Part shown: piece by piece, positions 5,183-33,764 of the stretch
Layout: every line of letters starts with the position of its first letter
How positions within the stretch are numbered: the first letter of the stretch is position 1
Virus record (IMG/VR): IMGVR_UViG_3300043468_000106
Span: 1-38,498 of that record
Direction: 5' to 3' (one strand)
DNA: 38,498 bases
Origin: a virus
Position numbers and translations under genes: made by a program
The notes under the pieces: generated by a model
What the model was told of the DNA's origin: nothing
Database searches by the model: none
The model's input: the letters and a program-made list of their open reading frames with translations, nothing else

Positions 5183-5514
5183 GAGATTTCTCGGCCTGAA
5201 CAGCGAATGTTGATGGCAGAGGCAGCGGACGCAATAGTCGAAATAGAGCCGCCAGAATCAATGGTGTGCCCGACCAATTCCGGGAACGTATACGTCTCGG
5301 AAGGCAACAAAGTCTTGCTCTTAACAATTAAGTTTGAATTGCTAGACGAACTGCCAACAGTAATTAAGTTTACAGAAATAGTGGCCGCACTAACACTGTA
5401 ATTAGTGGCTGTAAACTTATCTATGATAGCCGTTACGTTGGACGCGGTGTATTGAGTCGTTTGCGCGTCAGCAGCCGTTCTGGCTGAAATTAAAACTTTA
5501 GATATGACTGCCAT
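5179..5514 (-). CDS. Small beta-rich structural protein
   Basis: The protein has 111 aa from ATG 5514, preferred over a start 10 residues upstream because GAGG lies 5 nt before it and the longer form would overlap the previous gene. It is Ser/Thr/Ile/Val-rich with short alternating beta segments and very few charged residues, typical of head-fibre or tail-decoration proteins. It follows the Gly-rich fibre gene. The function is not established. Confidence 0.65.
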   Translation of the reverse strand: MAVISKVLISARTAADAQTTQYTASNVTAIIDKFTATNYSVSAATISVNLITVGSSSSNSNLIVKSKTLLPSETYTFPELVGHTIDSGGSISTIASAASAINIRCSGREIS

Positions 5515-5521
5515 AAATACC

Positions 5522-6577
5522 TCAAGGCGCAGAATCGACTTCAACAGTAATAACGCAGAAATTCACTATTTCTTGAGTCGCTGCATTACGAATTTGAATG
5601 TACAACTCACGTTCAACAGCGTTATTAGTTGCCGACAACGTGAAATCTCTTGTGGTGCCAAGCGAGAGCCATGTTTGCGGTGTGGCTCCGCCAACAACGC
5701 CACCGCCAGGAATCCCGCCGGGACCGCCTCCTTGCGGAGACCACTGAGCATAAACCTCATAATCTGATGAGGTTCCGCTGGTAAGCCATTCACCCGTGAT
5801 GTTGACCAATGTACCCGATACGTTAGTGGCGAGGGCTTGACCGTCAGATCGCAATCGGTAAGTCGCGGTTGCCGTGCCTCCAACGCCAGATAACGACAAA
5901 TTGGCCGCGTACTGATCGCTTAACACGACGTTTGATGGATAGGTCCAATAGAAGCAAATGCGCCCACCGCCGCCATTTCCTCCGACTGCGCTGACTACGC
6001 CGCCAGAGCCGACTCCGGGGCCGCCACCGCCGCCGGGAGTTCCGCCCGCAACGGAATAACTGGAGCCACCCGTACCCCCGCCTCCGGCGACGTTGCCAGC
6101 GTCTCCGCCGACCAAGTTAGTTCCGGCAGTTGCAGCGGACGTTGCTGGAAATGGAATGCCGCCATCAAGAACGTTGACCCCAGCGGCTCCGGGCGCAGTT
6201 TCTCCTCCCCCGCCGCCGTACCCAGCCGTTAATTCAATGCCTCCGCCACCGGGCGGAAATTCAACAACAGAAGGGCCGCCATTAGAGCCATCAGCGATCG
6301 TAGTGCTTCCTGCGCCACCAGTGCCGACATTGTAGGAAATTTGCGAAGAACCGCCCGCAACCGAAAATGAACGCTTGGCATATCCTGCGCCACCGCCACC
6401 ATACCCGGCGCTGCTGCCATTGACGCCACCTCCGCCACCGCCGCCCCACATTTCAACAGTGACGCCAGTGGAGCCTGTAGGGGCAGTGATTGTTCCGCTC
6501 TGGCCTGCCGCAAAGCATTGCCCACCCGGCGCGGATGATGCACTAGACAGCCACAGCAAAAAGTCTGCGCCTGACAT
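5522..6577 (-). CDS. Glycine-rich tail fibre / adhesin
   Basis: The protein has 351 aa. After a short N-terminus, residues ~25-210 are an unbroken Gly-rich domain with GGGG runs interrupted by S, A, P and aromatic residues, similar to glycine-rich receptor-recognition domains of phage adhesins. The C-terminal ~130 residues are beta-rich, suggesting a separate folded domain. It overlaps the preceding fibre gene by 1 nt (TAATG). A role in host-surface binding is inferred from composition and neighbours. Confidence 0.7.
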   Translation of the reverse strand: MSGADFLLWLSSASSAPGGQCFAAGQSGTITAPTGSTGVTVEMWGGGGGGGVNGSSAGYGGGGAGYAKRSFSVAGGSSQISYNVGTGGAGSTTIADGSNGGPSVVEFPPGGGGIELTAGYGGGGGETAPGAAGVNVLDGGIPFPATSAATAGTNLVGGDAGNVAGGGGTGGSSYSVAGGTPGGGGGPGVGSGGVVSAVGGNGGGGRICFYWTYPSNVVLSDQYAANLSLSGVGGTATATYRLRSDGQALATNVSGTLVNITGEWLTSGTSSDYEVYAQWSPQGGGPGGIPGGGVVGGATPQTWLSLGTTRDFTLSATNNAVERELYIQIRNAATQEIVNFCVITVEVDSAP

Positions 6578-7377
6578 TAACTAACTCCGGGGCCGTTAAT
6601 AATCCAGTTAGTGCTGCCTACCTTCAACAGTACGGCCATAGCATTTTGCGCCAAAGTGCGAGTTCCAGTAGAAGTGCTATTCGCCAAGGTCAACGTGTCA
6701 GTGGTAATAGCCACTGAAAGCGACGTGGCATTTCCGTTTACAACCCCGATGATAGTGCCGATTGGAAACGCAGCAGCACTGTTTGCAGGAATGGTGAGCG
6801 TTATGCTCGTTCCATTCATGTAAATGTGCTTACCAGCATCGCACAACTTTAATTCATAACTGGCTGTTTGGCTGTTCTGCGGGCAATCTCGATAGCCAAT
6901 AACATGATTGACGTTTGGAGTGCAGTTATCAGGAACTTTGGCTTGCCCAGTAAAGGTTGGGCTTGCGATTGGGGCAAACGTCGCATCTGTCTGCGCCTTG
7001 GTATACGCATCCGTGATGCCGTAACCAGCCAAGGTCGTCGGTGTATTGGTAATGTTTGACCAATTTATTCCGGTTACTGCCGGATCAATAATTGCCGGGA
7101 TGTTGTCGTATGTGCCAATCAAAACGCCCGCAGAGGTGCGAACTATGAATTTGTAAGCGTATCCCTCTGTTAACCAAATCTCCGCAGGCGTGCGTCCAGC
7201 CGAGTTCAGCACGATGGGATTGCTGTTAGCCGTTCCGCCCGTGCTGCTTGTATAGGTTGCGCGAGGGGTCGTGGTACCAGCGTCATACGAATAAACAAGA
7301 CCGCCCGAAAGCGGATCGCCGTTGTTGTCGAAAAACTGTGCGCCAGCGCCAGCAAAGGCCGAAAGATTAACGGTCAT
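6577..7377 (-). CDS. Tail fibre / tailspike protein with common N-terminal domain
   Basis: The protein has 266 aa. The N-terminal ~95 residues carry the recurrent phage fibre module recognised by AGAGAQFFDNNGDPLSGG, a Y-DAGTTTP-ATYTS segment and NPIVLNSAGRTPAEIWL, ending in a GTYDNI motif. This module attaches receptor-binding proteins to the tail in many podo- and siphoviruses. The remainder is beta-rich without an obvious enzymatic domain. It sits between two other tail proteins, with an ATGA overlap upstream and TAATG downstream. Confidence 0.75.
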   Translation of the reverse strand: MTVNLSAFAGAGAQFFDNNGDPLSGGLVYSYDAGTTTPRATYTSSTGGTANSNPIVLNSAGRTPAEIWLTEGYAYKFIVRTSAGVLIGTYDNIPAIIDPAVTGINWSNITNTPTTLAGYGITDAYTKAQTDATFAPIASPTFTGQAKVPDNCTPNVNHVIGYRDCPQNSQTASYELKLCDAGKHIYMNGTSITLTIPANSAAAFPIGTIIGVVNGNATSLSVAITTDTLTLANSTSTGTRTLAQNAMAVLLKVGSTNWIINGPGVS

Positions 7378-25296: not shown

Positions 25297-25774
25297 GGGC
25301 AGTGTCCTCCGGTGCGTACTGTATCGCAGCGGGTTGCTCGTGCGCTAATTGATCCGGCGTAGCGTCATATACGCGGCCCGCCAAGACGCGAGATTCTGCC
25401 TCTTGCAGCGCGGCGACAATACTGATTTGAGATTTAATATCGACCTGAACTTGCTGCTTGGCAACCCATCCGTGAAGGTGGGTAAGCAGGGCGAGGGCTG
25501 CCTTGCTATCTCCCTCAAGCGCGGCAGAGCGCAATTGAGTCGCCGCCTCAACCTCAGAGTCCGCACGACCTTTCCCCTCGGCGACCGCAGCCGCGTTATC
25601 TAACTGGCAGAGTCTACGGTACTCGACGGGCAGCAACCCAGCCGCAAAGGCCAAGGCGTCACCCTTCAGCCCAAGTTTGGCAGCATCGTAAATTTTTTGC
25701 AGAACCTCCGGCGATGCCTTTAGTTCCCGAGGCGCAAAAGGAATGGACTTAAAGGATTCTGTTACGAGGTTCAT
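25280..25774 (-). CDS. Probable terminase small subunit
   Basis: The protein has 164 aa from ATG 25774. The frame extends 28 codons upstream to a TTG, but that part overlaps another frame and looks non-coding. Features: a helix-turn-helix-like region (SPEVLQKIYDAAKLGLKGDALA followed by GLLPVEYRRL), a helical centre with LALLTHLHGW, and an acidic C-terminus. The size, helical content and position two genes before the large terminase support a small-terminase role (DNA recognition). Direct motif evidence is weak. Confidence 0.6.
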   Translation of the reverse strand: MNLVTESFKSIPFAPRELKASPEVLQKIYDAAKLGLKGDALAFAAGLLPVEYRRLCQLDNAAAVAEGKGRADSEVEAATQLRSAALEGDSKAALALLTHLHGWVAKQQVQVDIKSQISIVAALQEAESRVLAGRVYDATPDQLAHEQPAAIQYAPEDTAHVNAE

Positions 25775-25952
25775 ACCGGAACTCTTTGCCAGAACAGGCG
25801 GGAACGTCAGACATCCATCCGTGGTGGGTGGCATGGGCACACCAGACCTTTTCAGCAACCCTAGTCACTTGAGCGGCCCAGAAGCAAGAGCGGCATACCA
25901 GAGACTTGGCAGCAAACTCTAACCACTCTGCCTCAGACATCTGTATCGGCAT
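25749..25952 (-). CDS. Small Cys/His-containing protein at the start of the late block
   Basis: The protein has 67 aa from ATG 25952. Cys and His residues (LVCRSCFWAA, WCAHATHHGW, PACSG) could form a zinc site of C-x2-C type. It overlaps the terminase-like gene by 26 nt. An extended -10 box (TG-T-TACAGT) ends 6 nt before the ATG with no Shine-Dalgarno, suggesting a leaderless start. It is the outermost gene of the leftward block. The function is unknown. Confidence 0.5.
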   Translation of the reverse strand: MPIQMSEAEWLEFAAKSLVCRSCFWAAQVTRVAEKVWCAHATHHGWMSDVPACSGKEFRYEPRNRIL

Positions 25953-25958
25953 ACCGAG

Positions 25959-25967
25959 ACTGTAACA
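25959..25967 (-). promoter_or_regulatory. Extended -10 element before the leftward late block
   Basis: The minus strand reads TGTTACAGT (TG-N-TACAGT), ending 6 nt before ATG 25952. No good -35 is present at the usual distance, which is tolerated by extended -10 promoters. The transcript would begin at or next to the start codon. Confidence 0.4.
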
Positions 25968-26537
25968 GAAGGTTTGGCAAGGAAGGAAGAGCAAGAGCAA
26001 CGTGCAGGGTGATCCTGCCGGGAGGCCGCGATCTCCAACAACCGTGGAGCCTGTGTGCCGAGGCGGAAGCGTTTAGGGAGAAAACGTTTAGTGCCTTAGA
26101 TGGTGCGGCTCTTGGACATCCAAATTATCCAAGTCATCAAAACCGCTTCAGTTACCTCTCGGTCGCTACCAGCGCATCTGGTCAGACGTTGCAACAAGAA
26201 GTTTAGCGGAGTTTAAAAAAATAAAAAAGTTTTTGTGGGGGTATTGTTAATGTCAAGGACCTTCCACAGGCCCTGTACCCCCCTTGTTGCTTACTCACAA
26301 CAATTCTTGTGCGTGTACCAAAACTGCAACAGCCTTAAAAGTTTACGGCGAGAGTTAGCGAGAGAGGGTGCCAAAGTTTGGAAGTGCCTCGAATACCAAC
26401 CGAGGATTTTTTAAAGGTGGTTGTTTTTCCCTAGGCAACATTCAGGGACGTTTTTTTTCTAACCATCACTTTTTTGTTTTTAGCCTAGACGCGAATGGTT
26501 ATCGTTATGCGTAATAGAATCGTTTGCAATACGTTAT

Positions 26538-26621
26538 GTTGCGTAGATGCAACGCGTTGCGTTTATGCAACATGGCTACGTTGTGGCGTAGATGCAACAG
26601 TTAGTGTTGCGTGGATGCAAC
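26538..26621. repeat. Four palindromic repeats, GTTGCGTNNATGCAAC
   Basis: Copies lie at 26538-26553, 26556-26571, 26580-26598 (with a 3-nt TGG insertion in the left half) and 26606-26621. Each has arms GTTGC and GCAAC around a 6-nt centre GTNNAT. Right arms end 18, 27 and 23 nt apart. A fifth, one-mismatch copy lies at 13344-13359 over a putative promoter. The array looks like iterons or a multimeric operator. Confidence 0.8.
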
Positions 26622-26640
26622 ACGATCAGGCGTCAGCAAT

Positions 26641-26680
26641 CCGTAGTGACTACGGTAGGCTCTGTAGTCATTTCGACTAC
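26641..26680. repeat. Two inverted repeats sharing GTAGT/ACTAC arms
   Basis: The first is CCGTAG-TGA-CTACGG (26641-26655), perfect with a 3-nt centre. The second is GTAGTC (26664-26669), 5 nt, GACTAC (26675-26680). They lie between the 16-mer palindromes and the TACTAAC array. They could be binding sites of a second dimeric regulator or small cruciforms. Confidence 0.65.
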
Positions 26681-26894
26681 TAACGCTCAAACCCTATAAA
26701 AATAGGCATTTACGAGCAATGTTAGTAAGTCAGTAAGTATTTCTTCCCTATACTTTTACTGTACTAACTTTTTTTGCAACTTCACTACTCTCTGTCTTTT
26801 TTACTAACAGTTTCTATTTCTCCATGATTTTCAATAGTTTAGGTGTTAGTAATTTTCACCCTAACTTCTGAATAGTGCTACTACGCTTACTGAC
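26678..26894. repeat. Phased TACTAAC / GTTAGTA array
   Basis: Exact copies: TACTAAC at 26678, 26762 and 26802; the reverse complement GTTAGTA at 26721 and 26845. A one-mismatch copy, TACTGAC, is at 26888. Successive copies are 43, 41, 40, 43 and 43 bp apart, about four helical turns, so all would lie on the same DNA face. The intervening DNA is AT-rich. The spacing suggests cooperative protein binding or DNA wrapping, for example at an origin. Confidence 0.65.
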
Positions 26895-26926
26895 GCAACA
26901 GATACCTAGCGTTTTGTGTATGTAAC

Positions 26927-26960
26927 TTGTGTTGACAGCATCGACACAACAAGGTGTAAT
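26927..26960 (+). promoter_or_regulatory. Early rightward promoter with overlapping palindrome
   Basis: A perfect -35 TTGACA (26932-26937), a 17-nt spacer and -10 TGTAAT (26955-26960). The -35 lies inside a 23-bp inverted repeat with 9-bp arms, TTGTGTTGA (26927-26935) and TCGACACAA (26941-26949), one mismatch, around a CAGCA centre. This is the best sigma-70 match before the plus-strand early genes, and the palindrome is a likely operator. Confidence 0.7.
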
Positions 26961-26998
26961 GCAATCGTTGACAGACAAAACACACGGAGCAACTAGCA

Positions 26999-27250
26999 AT
27001 GTTTAGCCATTCAGACTTTGAAGCCAACCCGAAAAAGTACGAGTTAGTAAAAACGGCTCGTGTCGCTTCCCATGTATTTACAGAGAACGGCTCTGACGAT
27101 CTTGCAAAGGGTCAATTTGTCGCCGTTCGTCACATTCGCAATGCCTATAACGGCTTGCGTCATCGCATGGAGCCTGTTTACAGCATCACCGCAAGCGGCA
27201 AGGTGTGGGGTGTGATGTTCGCTTCTAATCTCTCTGACTTCGTTCTGTAA
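26999..27250 (+). CDS. Small early protein
   Basis: The protein has 83 aa and is the first gene of the rightward early block. GGAG lies 9 nt before the ATG and a strong promoter ~40 bp upstream. It is a mixed alpha/beta sequence with FSHSDFEANPKKYELVKTAR, QFVAVRHIRN and YSITASGKVWGVMFASNL. No recognised family. First early genes of phages often encode host-takeover factors, but nothing here proves that. Confidence 0.7.
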   Translation: MFSHSDFEANPKKYELVKTARVASHVFTENGSDDLAKGQFVAVRHIRNAYNGLRHRMEPVYSITASGKVWGVMFASNLSDFVL

Positions 27251-27260
27251 GGGGATAACT

Positions 27261-27401
27261 ATGACTCACTTCCTTAACTCCATCGTCTTCGTAGGCTTCA
27301 CCCTCGCTTGTGTTGCCTTTGTAATAGATTCCTTTACACTCGGAGCCGGTGGCATAACCGTTGCCGGTATCGCTGCCTTGATCGACTACGTTCGCAACTA
27401 A
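27261..27401 (+). CDS. 46-aa small membrane protein
   Basis: Starts at ATG 27261 with AAGGGG 7 nt upstream and ends at TAA 27401. Two hydrophobic stretches (about 5-22 and 28-41) are separated by a short Ser/Gly turn, ending in DYVRN. Good ribosome site, position inside a tight operon and a clear two-helix pattern support a real gene. The function is unknown; superinfection or membrane effects are possible. Confidence 0.65.
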   Translation: MTHFLNSIVFVGFTLACVAFVIDSFTLGAGGITVAGIAALIDYVRN

Positions 27402-27419
27402 CTCTCGGAAAATCACAAA

Positions 27420-27677
27420 ATGAAGCCTTACGCACAATACAAACCAGACGGCAAACTGTGGTCAGCAGGTCGCACCATTTATGGCCTCTGCGCTGCTTAT
27501 AACCATGCCACAAGCCCATCACGCTTGATGACGGACGAGCAGCACCAACGCTCTAACGTCTACGCTCGCGCCATCCGTAACCGTATTAGACGCATGGGCT
27601 ACCGATACGGAGAGCATTACTCGGAATGGTCGAATGGTGCTCTCTATCCGTGTTCTGTTAAGTCTACCAATCCCTAG
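27420..27677 (+). CDS. Small basic early protein
   Basis: The protein has 85 aa, basic and rich in Arg/Tyr, with GRTIYGLCAAYNHATS, NVYARAIRNRIRRMGYRYGE and a C-terminal WSNGALYPCSVK. The RAIRNRIRR segment could bind nucleic acid. It ends 3 nt before the hammerhead ribozyme, which separates it from the next gene on the message. No family was recognised. Confidence 0.65.
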   Translation: MKPYAQYKPDGKLWSAGRTIYGLCAAYNHATSPSRLMTDEQHQRSNVYARAIRNRIRRMGYRYGEHYSEWSNGALYPCSVKSTNP

Positions 27678-27680
27678 AGA

Positions 27681-27730
27681 GGTCGAAACGCCGTGAGGCG
27701 TCTAGCAGTTATGCTGCTACTGATGAGACC
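27681..27730 (+). ncRNA. Type II hammerhead ribozyme
   Basis: All conserved core elements are present in type II order (open at stem II). Stem II strand GGTC (27681-27684), GAAA (27685-27688), stem III closed by the A27688-T27701 pair plus CGCC/GGCG (27689-27692 with 27697-27700) and a GTGA tetraloop, then C27702 as the cleavage-site base. Next stem I TAGCAG/CTGCTA (27703-27708 with 27714-27719) with loop TTATG, the core CTGATGA (27720-27726), and stem II strand GACC (27727-27730). Predicted self-cleavage lies between 27702 and 27703. It fills the gap between two early genes, so it could process the early mRNA. Activity is inferred from the intact consensus. Confidence 0.9.
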
Positions 27731-27751
27731 AACAAACTAGGAGATATGCAC

Positions 27752-28051
27752 ATGGGTTACACAATCAACGACACCGAATCCCGATACAACGGTTGGACTA
27801 ACTACGCTACGTGGCGCGTCAATCTGGAGATCTTCGACGGGTTCGACCCCTCTGACTATTTCTCAGGCTTTGACGCTGACGATATCGACGCATTGGCTGA
27901 CGGTCTGTCTGACTACGCCGATCAAGTGTTGTTCGAGTGCGCTACCGTCGAGGGGTTAGCCGCTGACTATGCCCGCGCCTTTTTGTCTGACGTTAACTGG
28001 CGAGAGATTGCCGAGCATATGTTGGACGCCATCAAGCAGGAGGCCGCATGA
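27752..28051 (+). CDS. Small phage protein, DUF7249-like
   Basis: The protein has 99 aa from ATG 27752. TAGGAG lies 8 nt upstream of this codon, while an ATG at 27746 is too close to it. The N-terminal YNGWTNYATWRVNLEIFDG is a signature of small phage proteins (DUF7249-like), followed by an acidic stretch (FSGFDADDIDALADGLSDYA) and a helical C-terminus. It is the first gene downstream of the ribozyme, and its ribosome site is retained after cleavage. The molecular function is unknown. Confidence 0.75.
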   Translation: MGYTINDTESRYNGWTNYATWRVNLEIFDGFDPSDYFSGFDADDIDALADGLSDYADQVLFECATVEGLAADYARAFLSDVNWREIAEHMLDAIKQEAA

Positions 28052-28359
28052 ACGCTCACACTCCATACCCGTGGACGGTAGACGGAACAATTGCCGCCGA
28101 AAATTTAGATGTAATCGGTGAAGGTGGCCGCGTTGCCATGCTTGATTGCGACGATATCGACGCCGACACGTTAGAAGCCAATGCTCGATTGATCGCCGCC
28201 GCACCGGAACTCCTCGAAGCCCTGATCCTTTTGCTGAATGTAGAAAGCGCAGCCTTATGGGGGGCGCGTTTAACCGCCGCGAATAATGGTTTAGATGTTG
28301 CCTATCATTTTGATAAGGCTAGAGCCGCCATCGCCAAGGCTAGCGGGGAGGCCGCATGA
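28048..28359 (+). CDS. Small phage protein with ANARLIAAAPELLEAL motif
   Basis: The protein has 103 aa. A beta-rich N-terminus (TPYPWTVDG, DVIGEGGRVAML) is followed by the very common phage motif ANARLIAAAPELLEAL and a C-terminal KARAAIAKASGE helix, as in Ea22/ead-type accessory proteins of temperate and lytic phages. The function is unknown despite broad distribution. The ATGA overlap with the preceding gene shows coupling. Confidence 0.75.
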   Translation: MNAHTPYPWTVDGTIAAENLDVIGEGGRVAMLDCDDIDADTLEANARLIAAAPELLEALILLLNVESAALWGARLTAANNGLDVAYHFDKARAAIAKASGEAA

Positions 28360-28541
28360 GAGCCTTTGACGTGGTGCTATTTACCTGCATCCAAGAGGTC
28401 GTAACCGTTGAGGCACGCGACGAGGACGATGCCGCCGAGATCGCCTTGCACATCGTCCGAGCGGGCTACACGAAACACGACCAACTGGATTGGGACGTCG
28501 AAGAGGTAAATATAGGAGACCCTGCCGATGTCGCAGAATGA
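28356..28541 (+). CDS. Small acidic hypothetical protein
   Basis: The protein has 61 aa, strongly acidic, with AFDVVLFTCIQEVVTVEARDED followed by AAEIALHIVRAG, a beta-beta-alpha-like pattern found in small phage accessory proteins. Overlaps its neighbours by 4 and 14 nt. No function can be assigned. Confidence 0.6.
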   Translation: MRAFDVVLFTCIQEVVTVEARDEDDAAEIALHIVRAGYTKHDQLDWDVEEVNIGDPADVAE

Positions 28542-28737
28542 CCAGATACGCGCCGCCCTGATTCTAGGGCGCTCGCTCACCCCGCTCGATGCCTTGCAGG
28601 ACTATGGATGCTTCAGGCTTGCTGCCCGTATCGCAGACCTACGCCGTGAGGGCATGGACATTGAGTGCATTAACGAAACGAAGAACGGCAAGCGATACGC
28701 TCGCTATCAACTGCGGAGGCCGTATGCGTCTGCATAA
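28528..28737 (+). CDS. Helix-turn-helix domain protein
   Basis: The protein has 69 aa. The sequence ILGRSLTPLDALQDYGCFRL, AARIADLRREGMDIE and YARYQL matches the short winged-helix phage domain in which a conserved R-AARI-DLR-G recognition helix is followed by a beta wing. It probably binds DNA. It may regulate the early block or the repeats in the control region, which is inference from its type only. AGGAG lies ~10 nt before the start. Confidence 0.75.
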   Translation: MSQNDQIRAALILGRSLTPLDALQDYGCFRLAARIADLRREGMDIECINETKNGKRYARYQLRRPYASA

Positions 28738-28846
28738 ACTCTGGCAACTAGGGTACTGGTACGCTCGCGGCCACGATTGGCGACACGTACCGCCCCCGAA
28801 CTGGCGATCCAGCCGCGCACAACATCCGCTCTCCAATTACTGGTGA
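28724..28846 (+). CDS. 40-aa Trp/His-rich peptide
   Basis: ATG 28724, with GGAGG 5 nt upstream, to TGA 28846. It is rich in Trp, His, Arg and Pro (LWQLGYWYARGHDWRH, PPPNW). It overlaps the HTH gene by 14 nt. The longer frame opening at 28589 is mostly a shadow of the HTH gene. The good ribosome site favours a real gene; the function is unknown. Confidence 0.55.
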   Translation: MRLHKLWQLGYWYARGHDWRHVPPPNWRSSRAQHPLSNYW

Positions 28847-28850
28847 CACT

Positions 28851-29060
28851 ATGGAAAAGCCACACATACCAACCCTGCAAGAATTAGAGGCTCTATTTGC
28901 CGACGACGATACACCCCTCACCTACCGAGCACCCCCCGACCCTGCGCGGCTCCAAACGGCTGTGCGGGCGTTTATCAGCGCATGGGATGACGACTTGACG
29001 GTTAGGGAACTCGCGCCTTTTGTTGAGGAAGTGCGCCGCGCATTGGAGGGTAGGCCATGA
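28851..29060 (+). CDS. Small acidic helical protein
   Basis: The protein has 69 aa, acidic. It contains PTLQELEALFADDDTPLTY and an amphipathic helix AVRAFISAWDDDLTVRELAPF followed by VEEVRRALEG. It lies in the coupled early operon, 4 nt after its predecessor, with an ATGA overlap to the next gene. No family was recognised. Confidence 0.6.
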   Translation: MEKPHIPTLQELEALFADDDTPLTYRAPPDPARLQTAVRAFISAWDDDLTVRELAPFVEEVRRALEGRP

Positions 29061-29191
29061 CCGAGTTTCATGAACGATGGGGGTTGCAGCCAACCTATCC
29101 ACGGCTAACCCGTTGCACTCGCCGGTATTGGATCACTTATCTCGGGCGATGCGTAGATACTGCGAGGGCGACACTATGGCGGGATTCTTGA
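29057..29191 (+). CDS. 44-aa Arg/Trp-rich peptide
   Basis: ATG 29057 overlaps the previous TGA (ATGA) and has GGAGGG upstream; stop at 29191. The peptide is basic and aromatic (RWGLQPTYPRLTRCTRRYWI). Coupling and ribosome site support expression. The function is unknown. It overlaps the next small gene by 16 nt. Confidence 0.5.
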   Translation: MTEFHERWGLQPTYPRLTRCTRRYWITYLGRCVDTARATLWRDS

Positions 29192-29238
29192 TCGCCGTCG
29201 CCTTGACGGTACTTGCGTCGATATTGTTCGACGATTAA
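29176..29238 (+). CDS. 20-aa single-helix membrane peptide
   Basis: ATG 29176 with GAGGG upstream, TAA 29238. It encodes MAGFLIAVALTVLASILFDD, one uninterrupted hydrophobic helix with an acidic end. It is the last frame before the terminator hairpin of the early block. The length is marginal, so this is a candidate rather than a firm gene. Confidence 0.4.
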   Translation: MAGFLIAVALTVLASILFDD

Positions 29239-29240
29239 CG

Positions 29241-29270
29241 GAGGGGGCTTCGCGCCCCCTCTCTTATTTC
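29241..29270 (+). terminator. Terminator of the rightward early block
   Basis: An 8-bp stem GAGGGGGC (29241-29248) / GCCCCCTC (29254-29261) with a 5-nt loop is followed in the plus direction by the T-rich TCTTATTT. It lies between convergent operons, 2 nt after the early block's last stop and overlapping the end region of the leftward helicase gene. It may weakly act in both directions, but the T-rich side favours the plus strand. Confidence 0.75.
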
Positions 29271-30589
29271 ACGGCCTGAAGATCAGGCTTACCCTCGACC
29301 ATCGCCCGGATGTCTGACTTGCTACGGTCGGCCAACTCGGGAGCCACCCAGAGGTGTTTCGGCGTCTGATATTCGCGGCTCATAACTCGCCCGATATCCT
29401 TCCAGCCACTCTCTCGCAGGGCGACGAATAACGTCTCACGGGACGGTTTATGGCCGTCCGTACCTGCGGCAATGCCAGACAGCACCTCCGACCACGGAGA
29501 GCCTATAACGCCTCTAGCGAAGACTCCGCGACGTTGCCGCACCATGTCAGCGATAAATGCCTCGCCGCCGCTCATGCCAAGATCGACCATCGCCAATTTC
29601 GCATCAGTCAACGGCGGCACGGCTCCGGGGTTGAACGCGCTAACGTCTCGCGCATCCAGGTAACCCGCCACAGCCTCAAACCCGCCCTTGCCGTACCAAT
29701 CCCACAGCCTTGCGGCTTCGTCGTCCGGTAGGCGTGGCGCTTGCGACCAGATGACGAACCAGCGTCGATCATCAGCCGGAATCGTAATGGGCGCTCGATC
29801 ATTACTGAACGCCAGCACGAAAATCCTATTCACCACATAGTACGGGTGCTGTTGCTTCTTATTGACCAGCAGCAACTCGGGCGGCGCAGCGATCACGGGC
29901 TTCAGGTTGTTTTCCATCGCTCGACGGTCATCGCCCTTGCGGTATCGAATCTCGTTTAGCACGATGACTTCGGACTCGTAGGTATAGCCCCACGAGCCAG
30001 CGACCTCTTCAGCCCTAGCCACGGCTATGTTCTTGAGCGAACCGCCGCCAATAGACCACAGGAAAGGCGCCCAGAGCGTGTCCTTACCACCACCCGGCAA
30101 ACCCGTGTGCAGCACGGCATGGTTTATCTTGCGGCTCGGGTTCTGGCGCTTGTACGCCATCACGTTCAAAACGTGTTCGCGCTCAAAGTCGGCAGGGATC
30201 ATCCGGTGCAGGTGGTTTAGCCACAGCGATACGTCCGCGCTCTGTGCGGCTGGCCGTGAGTCCTTCCACTTGTTGACGTAGCCCACCCCGGCTTTCTTCA
30301 GCAACTCGGTTTCACCCGGCGCATACGTCAGGGCGTTAGCGACGTAACTACCCATCGCAGCCCGGTTCTCATCGAAGAAGGTAGCCGCCTCAATGCGCCT
30401 AGCCTTGTTGTGTACGGAGTAGCACGGCGTGCCCCGAAACAGGGCGTTAAACGTCTGCCGGGAATAGTCCTGATGCGTCTTGACATCGAAAAACAGGTCG
30501 CCCTCGGCAACGTAAACAAATCGTTTAAACCAGTCAGCCGGTGCCAACTGCGATACATCACCATCCGCGAGACTTTCGTATTCATCCAT
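29264..30589 (-). CDS. Superfamily 3 / D5-like replicative helicase
   Basis: The protein has 441 aa from ATG 30589; a GTG ten codons upstream is an alternative but lacks a ribosome site. The ATPase core has Walker A GLPGGGKDT (~163-171), Walker B-like VIVLNEI (~208-214), a sensor segment FVLAFSNDRAPI and DDRRWFVIW with candidate Arg-finger residues. This is the order in phage/plasmid D5-type (DUF5906-like) helicases. The ~100-residue N-terminal part resembles the pre-helicase domain. No AEP primase motifs were seen. It would unwind the origin; the host must supply the polymerase. It is the last gene of the leftward early operon. Confidence 0.82.
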   Translation of the reverse strand: MDEYESLADGDVSQLAPADWFKRFVYVAEGDLFFDVKTHQDYSRQTFNALFRGTPCYSVHNKARRIEAATFFDENRAAMGSYVANALTYAPGETELLKKAGVGYVNKWKDSRPAAQSADVSLWLNHLHRMIPADFEREHVLNVMAYKRQNPSRKINHAVLHTGLPGGGKDTLWAPFLWSIGGGSLKNIAVARAEEVAGSWGYTYESEVIVLNEIRYRKGDDRRAMENNLKPVIAAPPELLLVNKKQQHPYYVVNRIFVLAFSNDRAPITIPADDRRWFVIWSQAPRLPDDEAARLWDWYGKGGFEAVAGYLDARDVSAFNPGAVPPLTDAKLAMVDLGMSGGEAFIADMVRQRRGVFARGVIGSPWSEVLSGIAAGTDGHKPSRETLFVALRESGWKDIGRVMSREYQTPKHLWVAPELADRSKSDIRAMVEGKPDLQAVK

Positions 30590-31010: not shown

Positions 31011-31324
31011 TAGAAGCCCAACGGATCGTTGAGGTCAGCGTTTGCCCAATTCTCTTCGGTCAACCCTGCGGCTGGCGCGGCTTTCTTTGCCTGAACCTGC
31101 TTCGGGTTGAACTTCAGCGCAAGATACTTTTTGCCGCTCTTCGCAGTCTTTAAGCGTGCGTCAATCCAATATTCGGTGTCACCAATCAAGCCGCTGCCTT
31201 TGTAATCAGCGTCTTCGATGGTGTAAGTATCGCCCGTCGAACTTTTAACGGTGCGCGGCTCGCCCTTGTTTTCGTTTTTAAACACTGAACCCGTATTCGG
31301 GCGAACTTCATAAGTTTTGTTCAC
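31010..31324 (-). CDS. Small OB-fold/DUF736-style protein, possible ssDNA-binding role
   Basis: The protein has 104 aa. The N-terminal half has beta-strand motifs (NTGSVFKNENKG, then YWIDARLKTAKSGKKYLALKF) like the DUF736-type proteins found beside phage recombinases. The C-terminus is acidic and ends in NDPLGF, resembling the acidic tail of single-strand DNA-binding proteins. The position between YqaJ and the helicase fits. Binding to ssDNA is inferred. Confidence 0.6.
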   Translation of the reverse strand: MNKTYEVRPNTGSVFKNENKGEPRTVKSSTGDTYTIEDADYKGSGLIGDTEYWIDARLKTAKSGKKYLALKFNPKQVQAKKAAPAAGLTEENWANADLNDPLGF

Positions 31325-31932
31325 AGAGTCATCTCCTTCAATTTAGAAACCTTATCATCTAACTCAGCCAAAAACTCCTGCACCTCTTTCTCTAAAAGGG
31401 TGATGCAGTCTGTATCCCGTGGGATACGCACCACGAGCAGTTGTAATTCCTCGGGCATCCTCGGATCGTATGAGACCCAATCGCACCAGTCCGTACCCGT
31501 GCAGGCCATCTGCCATTGCATCTGATAAAAATACTTTTGCGGCGGCTCACGCTCAAAGAGGTACTCAATGTGCGTAGCCGTAGACGGACACTTAATCTCG
31601 ACGCAGCCATTGACGCCCACCAATCCGTCAGGACTGGCTCCTGCCATTTCGATTGCAGGGTGGTTGATAAAGCCTACCTCGGTGACGAGTTCGCCTACTT
31701 TGGCGCTGTAAGCGTCTCGCGCTTTGGCTTCTTGCTCGACGCCCCATTCCATCGCGGCACTACTGAACCCTTCGGTCGGCTTGCCGGTTAAGCGTTCGCA
31801 TACCAACTGCGCCATGTAGTTTGCGCGGGTAGCAGCATAGCCACTCTTCGTTCGTGCCACTACATCCGCCACCTTTGAGGCTGTCACCTTACCCAAACGG
31901 GCGGCGTGCCATTCTGTTGTTCGTTGCTCCAT
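31321..31932 (-). CDS. YqaJ-like viral recombinase (5'-3' exonuclease)
   Basis: The protein has 203 aa from ATG 31932 (TGATG overlap with the previous stop; a GTG one codon earlier is possible). Motifs of the lambda-exonuclease/YqaJ fold: Q-TTEWHAARLGKVTASK at the N-terminus, GVEQEAKARDAY, then the catalytic SPDGLVG and CVEIKCP (Asp ~102, Glu ~112, Lys ~114). It would resect double-stranded ends to give the substrate for the ERF annealing protein in the same operon. Length and motif spacing are normal for the family. Confidence 0.88.
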   Translation of the reverse strand: MEQRTTEWHAARLGKVTASKVADVVARTKSGYAATRANYMAQLVCERLTGKPTEGFSSAAMEWGVEQEAKARDAYSAKVGELVTEVGFINHPAIEMAGASPDGLVGVNGCVEIKCPSTATHIEYLFEREPPQKYFYQMQWQMACTGTDWCDWVSYDPRMPEELQLLVVRIPRDTDCITLLEKEVQEFLAELDDKVSKLKEMTL

Positions 31933-32243
31933 CACTTGTTTCTCTTCATAAATTCCAGCGCCTCACGGCTGAAATTAAAACCGGCGTATTCGTAAGTGTA
32001 TGTGCTGCCATCGTCCCAAATGACAATGATGAAATCATTGCCTAGCACGTAACAGCCGCGAGCCTGAATCTCGCCGCCATCGCCACGAATAAAAGCGAAA
32101 TGCTTTTCATCACAATTTGTTTTCGAGGTTGTAAAATATATCTGACCGTTAGCCCGATTGTTCACACTACCCAATAAATACGGCAAGTCATCTGCTGACG
32201 CCACGCCAATCATTAACGCGGCTACTGCTATCCACCTTTTCAT
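31932..32243 (-). CDS. Exported small protein with signal peptide
   Basis: The protein has 103 aa from ATG 32243 (GGAG 7 nt upstream, TGATG overlap). A classical signal peptide, MKRWIAVAALMIGVASA, is followed by DD, with predicted cleavage after Ala17. The mature part (~86 aa) is beta-rich with two Cys (TNCDE, ARGCYV) that could form a disulfide in the periplasm. A secreted protein inside a recombination operon is out of keeping and may act in superinfection exclusion or envelope modification. The family is unknown. Confidence 0.7.
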   Translation of the reverse strand: MKRWIAVAALMIGVASADDLPYLLGSVNNRANGQIYFTTSKTNCDEKHFAFIRGDGGEIQARGCYVLGNDFIIVIWDDGSTYTYEYAGFNFSREALEFMKRNK

Positions 32244-32688: not shown

Positions 32689-32995
32689 GTCCGGGCACCT
32701 GATACCACGACAAAACAATCTTGGCCGCATCCCGATGATCTTTTATCAAGCGCAGGTCTTTGGCCTTGTTCTTCTCAAACACGCCGTTTGGATACGCACC
32801 AGCCTTACGCTCTTCGATCATCTGTTCCATCATCTCAACGGTATTGGTCAGCGACCAAGCCACGATGTATGACTCAACGTCACTTAGTATTTCTTTCACT
32901 AGCCTCTGCTCCTTTACGCTGAGGCCAACTTGCTTTTCTTCTCGCTGAACAGGCTTAGATGCACCTTTCGCTCGCTTGCGTTTAGGCTTTTCCAT
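32672..32995 (-). CDS. Basic N-terminal, helical hypothetical protein
   Basis: The protein has 107 aa. The N-terminus is highly basic (KPKRKRAKGASKP), and the rest is helical (KEQRLVKEILSDVESYIVAW and EMMEQMIEERK). It overlaps the 3' end of the ERF gene by 82 nt in another frame. No closer alternative start was found, so either the overlap is real or the true start is a rare codon downstream. The function is unknown. Confidence 0.55.
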   Translation of the reverse strand: MEKPKRKRAKGASKPVQREEKQVGLSVKEQRLVKEILSDVESYIVAWSLTNTVEMMEQMIEERKAGAYPNGVFEKNKAKDLRLIKDHRDAAKIVLSWYQVPGHENLY

Positions 32996-33495
32996 ATTCC
33001 GTTTAACTCCTCGATAGTGGCTGCTAGTTGTACTGCCGCCTCAACAGCAGGATCGGTCGTGGCTGCGGCGACTTCATGCGTCTGTGAGTCGGCGTCGTTA
33101 TCGCCCTCGGTCGGGATGCAGAACGCTTGGAAGGCGGCGTACTTGTAAGCCGCAGACATGGCCTTGTTACTGGCCTTGTCGCCCGAGTCCATCGCTTCGC
33201 CTACGGTGATGACCGTGTGCTTGCTACCGTCTTCGGCGGCCACAAAGTCAAACTCCACGGTCAGCGTGACGTAGAACAGCGCAGTGCCTTGGCGGTTCTG
33301 GCGCTCGATAACCTGTCGGTCGGTAACGCGGGGCAGGATGCACAAGCCGTGCTTTGACAGCAACGGCGAGAGCGCACCGTACACAGCGTCGATGCCACGG
33401 AAAGCGTAGCCCTGCGACTGGTTCTTGCTGTCTTTGCTAATGCCGATCTTGGATAGTTCGGCGGTGACAGCGGCAATCTTCTCGTAGACCTTCAT
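32914..33495 (-). CDS. ERF family single-strand annealing protein
   Basis: The protein has 193 aa from ATG 33495 (GAGGAG 7 nt upstream; earlier codons in frame overlap the previous gene). Family motifs: NQSQGYAFRGIDAVYGALSPLLSKHG, VTLTVEFDF, and GEAMDSGDKASNKAMSAAYKYAAFQAF followed by CIPTEGDNDAD, the hallmark Walker-like/annealing region of Erf. It partners with the YqaJ exonuclease to form a two-component recombination system. The C-terminus (~140-193) overlaps the next gene by 82 nt and is the variable domain. Confidence 0.88.
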   Translation of the reverse strand: MKVYEKIAAVTAELSKIGISKDSKNQSQGYAFRGIDAVYGALSPLLSKHGLCILPRVTDRQVIERQNRQGTALFYVTLTVEFDFVAAEDGSKHTVITVGEAMDSGDKASNKAMSAAYKYAAFQAFCIPTEGDNDADSQTHEVAAATTDPAVEAAVQLAATIEELNGIWKSLNASERKVHLSLFSEKKSKLASA

Positions 33496-33764
33496 GCTTG
33501 TTCTCCTCTTGCGCGGATAGCGTCGGCGCACTGTGAATTACCAAGAACCCATGCGACATGCGCGTCTGCCCTATTGCGCTCAACTAATTCGTCACACAGC
33601 CCAGCGCACGCTTCCCGCTCGACTGCGGCAACAAGGTGTGCGAACTTATAAATGGCCTCAGAAGTTTCGGCTTCAATTTGCTCAGTTACCGAATCGCCAT
33701 CTATAAAGTCGATAAGGTAAAAGCCGACGCTCTGAGCCATACGTAAAATTTCTTCGCGGGTCAT
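33492..33764 (-). CDS. Conserved small phage protein
   Basis: The protein has 90 aa with MTREEILRMAQSVGF, FAHLVAAVEREACAGLCDELV and CADAIRARGE. This frequent phage pattern (EREAC and AIRARG) has no known function. It overlaps the ERF start by 4 nt, so it belongs to the recombination operon. Confidence 0.7.
   Translation of the reverse strand: MTREEILRMAQSVGFYLIDFIDGDSVTEQIEAETSEAIYKFAHLVAAVEREACAGLCDELVERNRADAHVAWVLGNSQCADAIRARGEQA

Follow-up and report, generated by a model that had tools for sequence, protein, structure and literature searches.

A type II hammerhead ribozyme with a probable role in separating the messages of two neighbouring phage genes

The locus and the structure of the ribozyme

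The 38,498 bases of the window make up an entire viral contig, whose portal and coat proteins are P22-like. Judged by the portal protein, its closest annotated relatives are DSL-LC05, a phage of Dishui Lake (72%), and ctNMl277 from Manatee Spring (69%); the ribozyme model found no match in either. The element described below lies between two genes of a rightward module of small genes. Gene A (27420–27677, + strand) codes for a protein of 85 aa, which has no match in Pfam and PHROG, and ends with the stop codon TAG at 27675–27677. Gene B (27746–28051, + strand) codes for a DUF7249 protein. That the two are early genes, as the sequence-only reading had it, is an assumption. It has two candidate ATGs, at 27746 and 27752; the second, the more likely start, is better spaced (8 nt) from the Shine–Dalgarno-like AGGAG at 27739–27743 (+), and several homologues start there. 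Comparison with annotated phage records gave no match for the DNA of the region 27400–28100 or for the gene B protein. No sigma-70 promoter was found in the region 25500–29400, and no tRNA was found in the window.

Two other features of the contig can be mentioned. Upstream of the small-gene module, a stretch of 86 bp (26537–26622) contains the palindromic 18-mer TGTTGCGTAGATGCAACA in four near-copies; these repeats look like repressor operators, a putative assignment. A YqaJ-type exonuclease (31321–31935, − strand) and an ERF-type single-strand annealing protein (32914–33531, − strand) constitute a phage recombination module.

The sequence-only reading of this DNA had proposed a complete type II hammerhead at 27681–27730, with GAAA, a UC cleavage site and CTGATGA in the proper order. 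The letters of the + strand, the structural scan and the fold bear this out to the base. The strand reads successively GGTC, GAAA, CGCC, GTGA, GGCG, T, C, TAGCAG, TTATG, CTGCTA, CTGATGA and GACC. All the bases of the invariant hammerhead core are present (C3 U4 G5 A6 N7 G8 A9, G12 A13 A14 and U16.1 H17), and three helices meet at this core: stem II is open, and loops close stems I and III.

All the parts of the ribozyme lie on the + strand. Stem II (4 bp) is formed by GGUC (27681–27684) and GACC (27727–27730) and is flanked by A27680 on the 5′ side and A27731 on the 3′ side. The segment GAAA (27685–27688; G12 A13 A14 A15.1), invariant in relatives, comprises the core GAA at 27685–27687 and A27688 (A15.1), which pairs with U27701. 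Stem III (ACGCC/GGCGU, 5 bp; 27688–27692 and 27697–27701) is read from the sequence, the fold and the relatives, and is closed by the tetraloop GUGA (27693–27696). The base H17 is C27702, and by homology to the hammerhead core the cut is predicted between 27702 and 27703. Stem I (UAGCAG/CUGCUA, 6 bp; 27703–27708 and 27714–27719) carries the loop UUAUG (27709–27713). It is followed by the core segment CUGAUGA (C3 to A9; 27720–27726), in which N7 is U27724.

The structural scan of both strands of the window found 27681–27730 as the sole perfect type II match. Applied to 300 first-order Markov windows that keep the dinucleotide statistics, the same scan yielded 11 weak matches and none equally strong. 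The isolated RNA folds in silico to exactly the expected three-way junction, with −20.4 kcal/mol and z = −3.1 relative to shuffled sequences. Our own covariance model, run with filters off, gives 80.7 bits for the element, a score obtained with the window sequence included among the rows of the model, against 10 bits at the next place in the window; no further hammerhead copy above 10 bits was found in the window with this model.

Conservation and placement in related phages

Relatives were gathered by searches with both flanking proteins and with a ribozyme pattern. In 19 other contigs, a ribozyme directly precedes a gene B homologue, the protein identity ranging from 100% down to about 46%. 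These copies include ones with an unrelated stem III sequence; the distant copies L133, L134, L148 and L035 have a different stem III sequence or different loops and occupy the same place. Close gene B homologues with no ribozyme in front of them also exist (L124, L123, L127, L131 and L132), so the element comes and goes, and gene B can do without it.

Covariation is shown chiefly by an alignment of 11 sequences, which is not fitted to the structure because it is ungapped. All 15 pairs are intact in every sequence (100% of pair cells paired), both bases are changed in three of the six stem I pairs (UA/AU/CG, GC/AU and AU/GC), and pairing shifted by one to three columns is destroyed. In close relatives, loop III switches between GUGA and GAGA, which is still GNRA, and the sole core base that varies is N7 (U or C), a free position. 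A wide alignment of 122 distinct rows has 96.5% of its cells paired and 416 double changes, where shuffles give about 100; it was given less weight because it is fitted to the model and leans to it. The stem II pairs covary in this wider set. Among the matches listed, N7 is U in 154, C in 15, A in three and G in two, as counted with a pattern scan that left N7 free and required the other core bases. The sequence-only reading had tied its proposal to whether related phages conserve the paired bases, and the ungapped alignment clearly indicates that compensatory change does conserve them.

The exact sequence lineage of the element was found in 19 contigs of the viral collection, and a search of bacterial genomes found none. 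It is conceivable that the ribozyme cuts RNA but is kept mainly as a near-constant joint for homologous recombination of small gene cassettes, cleavage being secondary. The ribozyme of this lineage links 11 upstream and eight downstream gene families at 23 loci (counts including one unassigned flank), L202, L203 and L211 have a near-identical gene A but differ in the gene behind it, and the phage encodes its own ERF- and YqaJ-type recombination proteins. The copy in L211 (5268–5317) looks hybrid: the first pair of stem I is mismatched between the halves AGGCAG and CTGCTA, and the gene that follows is a new one, as might result from a crossover within the ribozyme. Gene swapping at ribozyme joints is a likely process, but it leaves the RNA-level selection unexplained: stem I has paired substitutions, the GNRA loop is kept through change and N7 is the sole free core base. 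In addition, distant copies are alike in structure with little stem sequence in common, and the exact fit from stop codon to ribosome site is not explained by recombination alone. Maintenance mainly as a recombination joint seems to us quite unlikely.

This fit is precise in the window. The element had been described as filling the gap between the stop codon of gene A and the Shine–Dalgarno sequence of gene B. The stop was correctly placed, ending at 27677 and thus 3 nt before stem II; the ribosome-site motif, given as 27738, begins one base further on. The order of stop codon, ribozyme and ribosome site holds and is kept in related phages. Of 174 type II hammerheads among the matches listed, 140 (80%) have the stop of a long open frame at −2 to +4 nt from stem II, against 3% of random same-strand positions. 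Downstream, the median distance to a start codon that has a ribosome-site motif is 23 nt (174–178 phage type II hammerheads, among the matches listed), and both stop and start are close in 79% of this listed set, against 5% for random positions. In many listed copies, the last base of the stop codon is itself a base of stem II or the base flanking it. The window element obeys the same placement rule as the collected set.

Hammerheads may also be clustered. The region 8401–11325 of L021 contains seven, with about one open frame between neighbours and the stop of this frame next to the following ribozyme, and L027 has five in 1.4 kb (5507–6947), at consecutive gene junctions; the contig of L004 (77 kb) contains 10. 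In these three contigs, many neighbouring hammerheads are separated by a single gene, the stop of which abuts the next ribozyme. Taken from sequence data, such arrangements suggest that phages may use these ribozymes as gene-by-gene mRNA separators.

The proximity of the stop codon to stem II is also consistent with cleavage gated by translation. Given the size of the ribosome footprint, a ribosome terminating on gene A would cover stem II and GAAA and block folding, and uncut bicistronic mRNA would persist when gene A is heavily translated. The distances given above, both in the window and in the listed matches, and the stop bases that belong to stem II or its flank agree with this reading; tight packing alone, however, would put stop codons at the same spot. 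We regard such gating as unlikely. It is a refinement of the separation of the two messages by cleavage, which we favour, and is compatible with it.

Two sub-types of type II hammerheads and the Rfam score

At least 174 distinct type II hammerheads were collected from viral contigs, with a bias due to the gathering pattern, in which the core and a portion of stem III are fixed. The 174 distinct matches listed comprise 111 with a long loop I and 63 with a short loop I, the window element being short. Among the matches listed, the long-loop set has a stem II of mostly 2–3 bp and a loop I strongly complementary to the tail (z about 15 relative to swapped tails), whereas this complementarity gives a weak signal in the short-loop set (z about 3.9). 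Stem II has exactly 4 bp in 61 of the 63 short-loop matches listed; 59 of these 63 have an A next to it on the 5′ side, and 49 have one on the 3′ side. The consensus of the 9-nt loop region in the short-loop set is G-UNANG-C, with T in 46, A in 35 and G in 38 of 49 among the matches listed. The 5′ A is present in 34 of the 37 listed short-loop copies whose stop codon does not reach that base, so the stop codon is not its only source.

In the window, the possible helices between loop I and the tail have 3 bp (GUU:AAC) or 4 bp (AGUU:AACU), and both would break into stem I; a helix of 5 bp can form in the relatives L125 and L126. As judged from these features, the window element is a member of a common sub-type that appears to have no clear pseudoknot. 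Its cleavage rate could be low, because no strong loop I–tail pseudoknot is apparent. In the part of the work of Perreault et al. (2011; PMC3088659) covered here, this pseudoknot is needed for fast cleavage in the test case, and many hammerheads do without it; the short-loop sub-type is on this basis a refinement and not a new class. With a looser pattern, short-loop type II-like matches were also observed in 13 bacterial contigs (L239–L251), including Asticcacaulis, Singulisphaera, Lentzea and Sciscionella.

No Rfam model reaches its gathering score anywhere in the window. The sequence-only reading had proposed a search with the hammerhead type II model as a check, and the best model is indeed RF02276 (Hammerhead_II), but the score of 23.5 bits (E = 0.0076 for 201 bp) falls short of the gathering value of 37 bits. 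A default-settings Rfam search therefore misses the element. None of the 13 related ribozyme-bearing loci reaches the gathering score. Long-loop loci pass it, with up to 48.8 bits, and the short-loop loci L003, L005, L020, L025 and L027 fail. The model apparently fits the sub-type with a 2–3 bp stem II and a loop I–tail pseudoknot, hence the low score, and we infer from this pattern that the score reflects the sub-type described by the model, not a defective ribozyme. An inactive, decayed or chance hammerhead-like hairpin would be compatible with a score below gathering, and published in vitro tests found no activity for some natural candidates (PMC3088659, in the part covered here). Against the perfect core and stems, the conservation and the covariation of the window element, this explanation is highly improbable.

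Known systems and the predicted separation of messages

The type II hammerheads of Perreault et al. (2011; PMC3088659) flank single prophage genes, and processing into single-gene mRNAs was proposed for them; in the part of that work covered here, in vitro cleavage is described for tandem prophage hammerheads, one set of which also cleaves in E. coli. The window element has the same catalytic core and the same open stem II permutation as these ribozymes and RF02276, the same intergenic place between short genes in phage DNA, and the same proposed cutting of the transcript. The published consensus, as covered here, and the copies passing Rfam have a stem II of 2–3 bp, a larger loop I and a loop I–tail pseudoknot, whereas in the window element stem II has exactly 4 bp between A and A, loop I is small and UNANG-like, and no clear pseudoknot can be seen. 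The covered part of that paper does not state the short-loop sub-type or the stop-codon rule, and a search among openly accessible papers after 2011 found none on phage type II hammerheads. Novelty is accordingly less than the sequence-only reading had suggested: prophage hammerheads and the processing idea were already published (PMC3088659), and the window element is a well-supported new example. The theta (HDV-like) ribozymes of gut phages (Nat Commun 2024, PMC10879173) are likewise phage-encoded and of a self-cleaving class, cleavage being predicted here; in the covered part of that report they form another ribozyme class and are tied to suppressor tRNAs, whereas the search of the window found no tRNA.

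It is likely that 27681–27730 (+) is a functional self-cleaving type II hammerhead that separates the messages of genes A and B. During rightward transcription of the small-gene module, the ribozyme would fold as RNA polymerase passes and would cut after C27702. The upstream mRNA would end with the stem III hairpin and a 2′,3′-cyclic phosphate, and the downstream mRNA would start with a 5′-OH and the stem I hairpin, about 45–50 nt before the start codon of gene B. The ribosome site of gene B would be left intact and both reading frames kept whole. Genes A and B would then be present as independently translated and independently decaying messages, with possible effects on stability and expression. 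From hammerhead chemistry and bacterial RNA decay, a 5′-OH and hairpins at the ends are expected to slow 5′-phosphate-dependent and 3′ exonuclease decay. Operon-internal processing, as the locus had first been interpreted, is thus supported and accounts best for the observations; about 175 other phage hammerheads among the matches listed are placed in the same way.

Unmasking of the gene B ribosome site by cleavage was also considered. The predicted accessibility of this site is low before cleavage and low after it, so a switch freeing the ribosome site is unsupported, and this candidate was rejected.

A broader suggestion, which we hold to be rather unlikely, concerns the pseudoknot-poor sub-type, with its 4 bp stem II between A and A and its UNANG loop I. 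Missed by the Rfam threshold, it might sit at the stop-to-start junctions of many phages, where the terminating ribosome would be set against ribozyme folding, and each gene would obtain a separate mRNA only while ribosomes are not reading the message upstream of it.

The proposed separation of messages by the ribozyme has a sharp and testable layout (stop codon, ribozyme and ribosome site), and natural relatives exist with or without the element before the same gene. The survey also suggests that a common hammerhead sub-type of phages may have been passed over by the standard RNA model.
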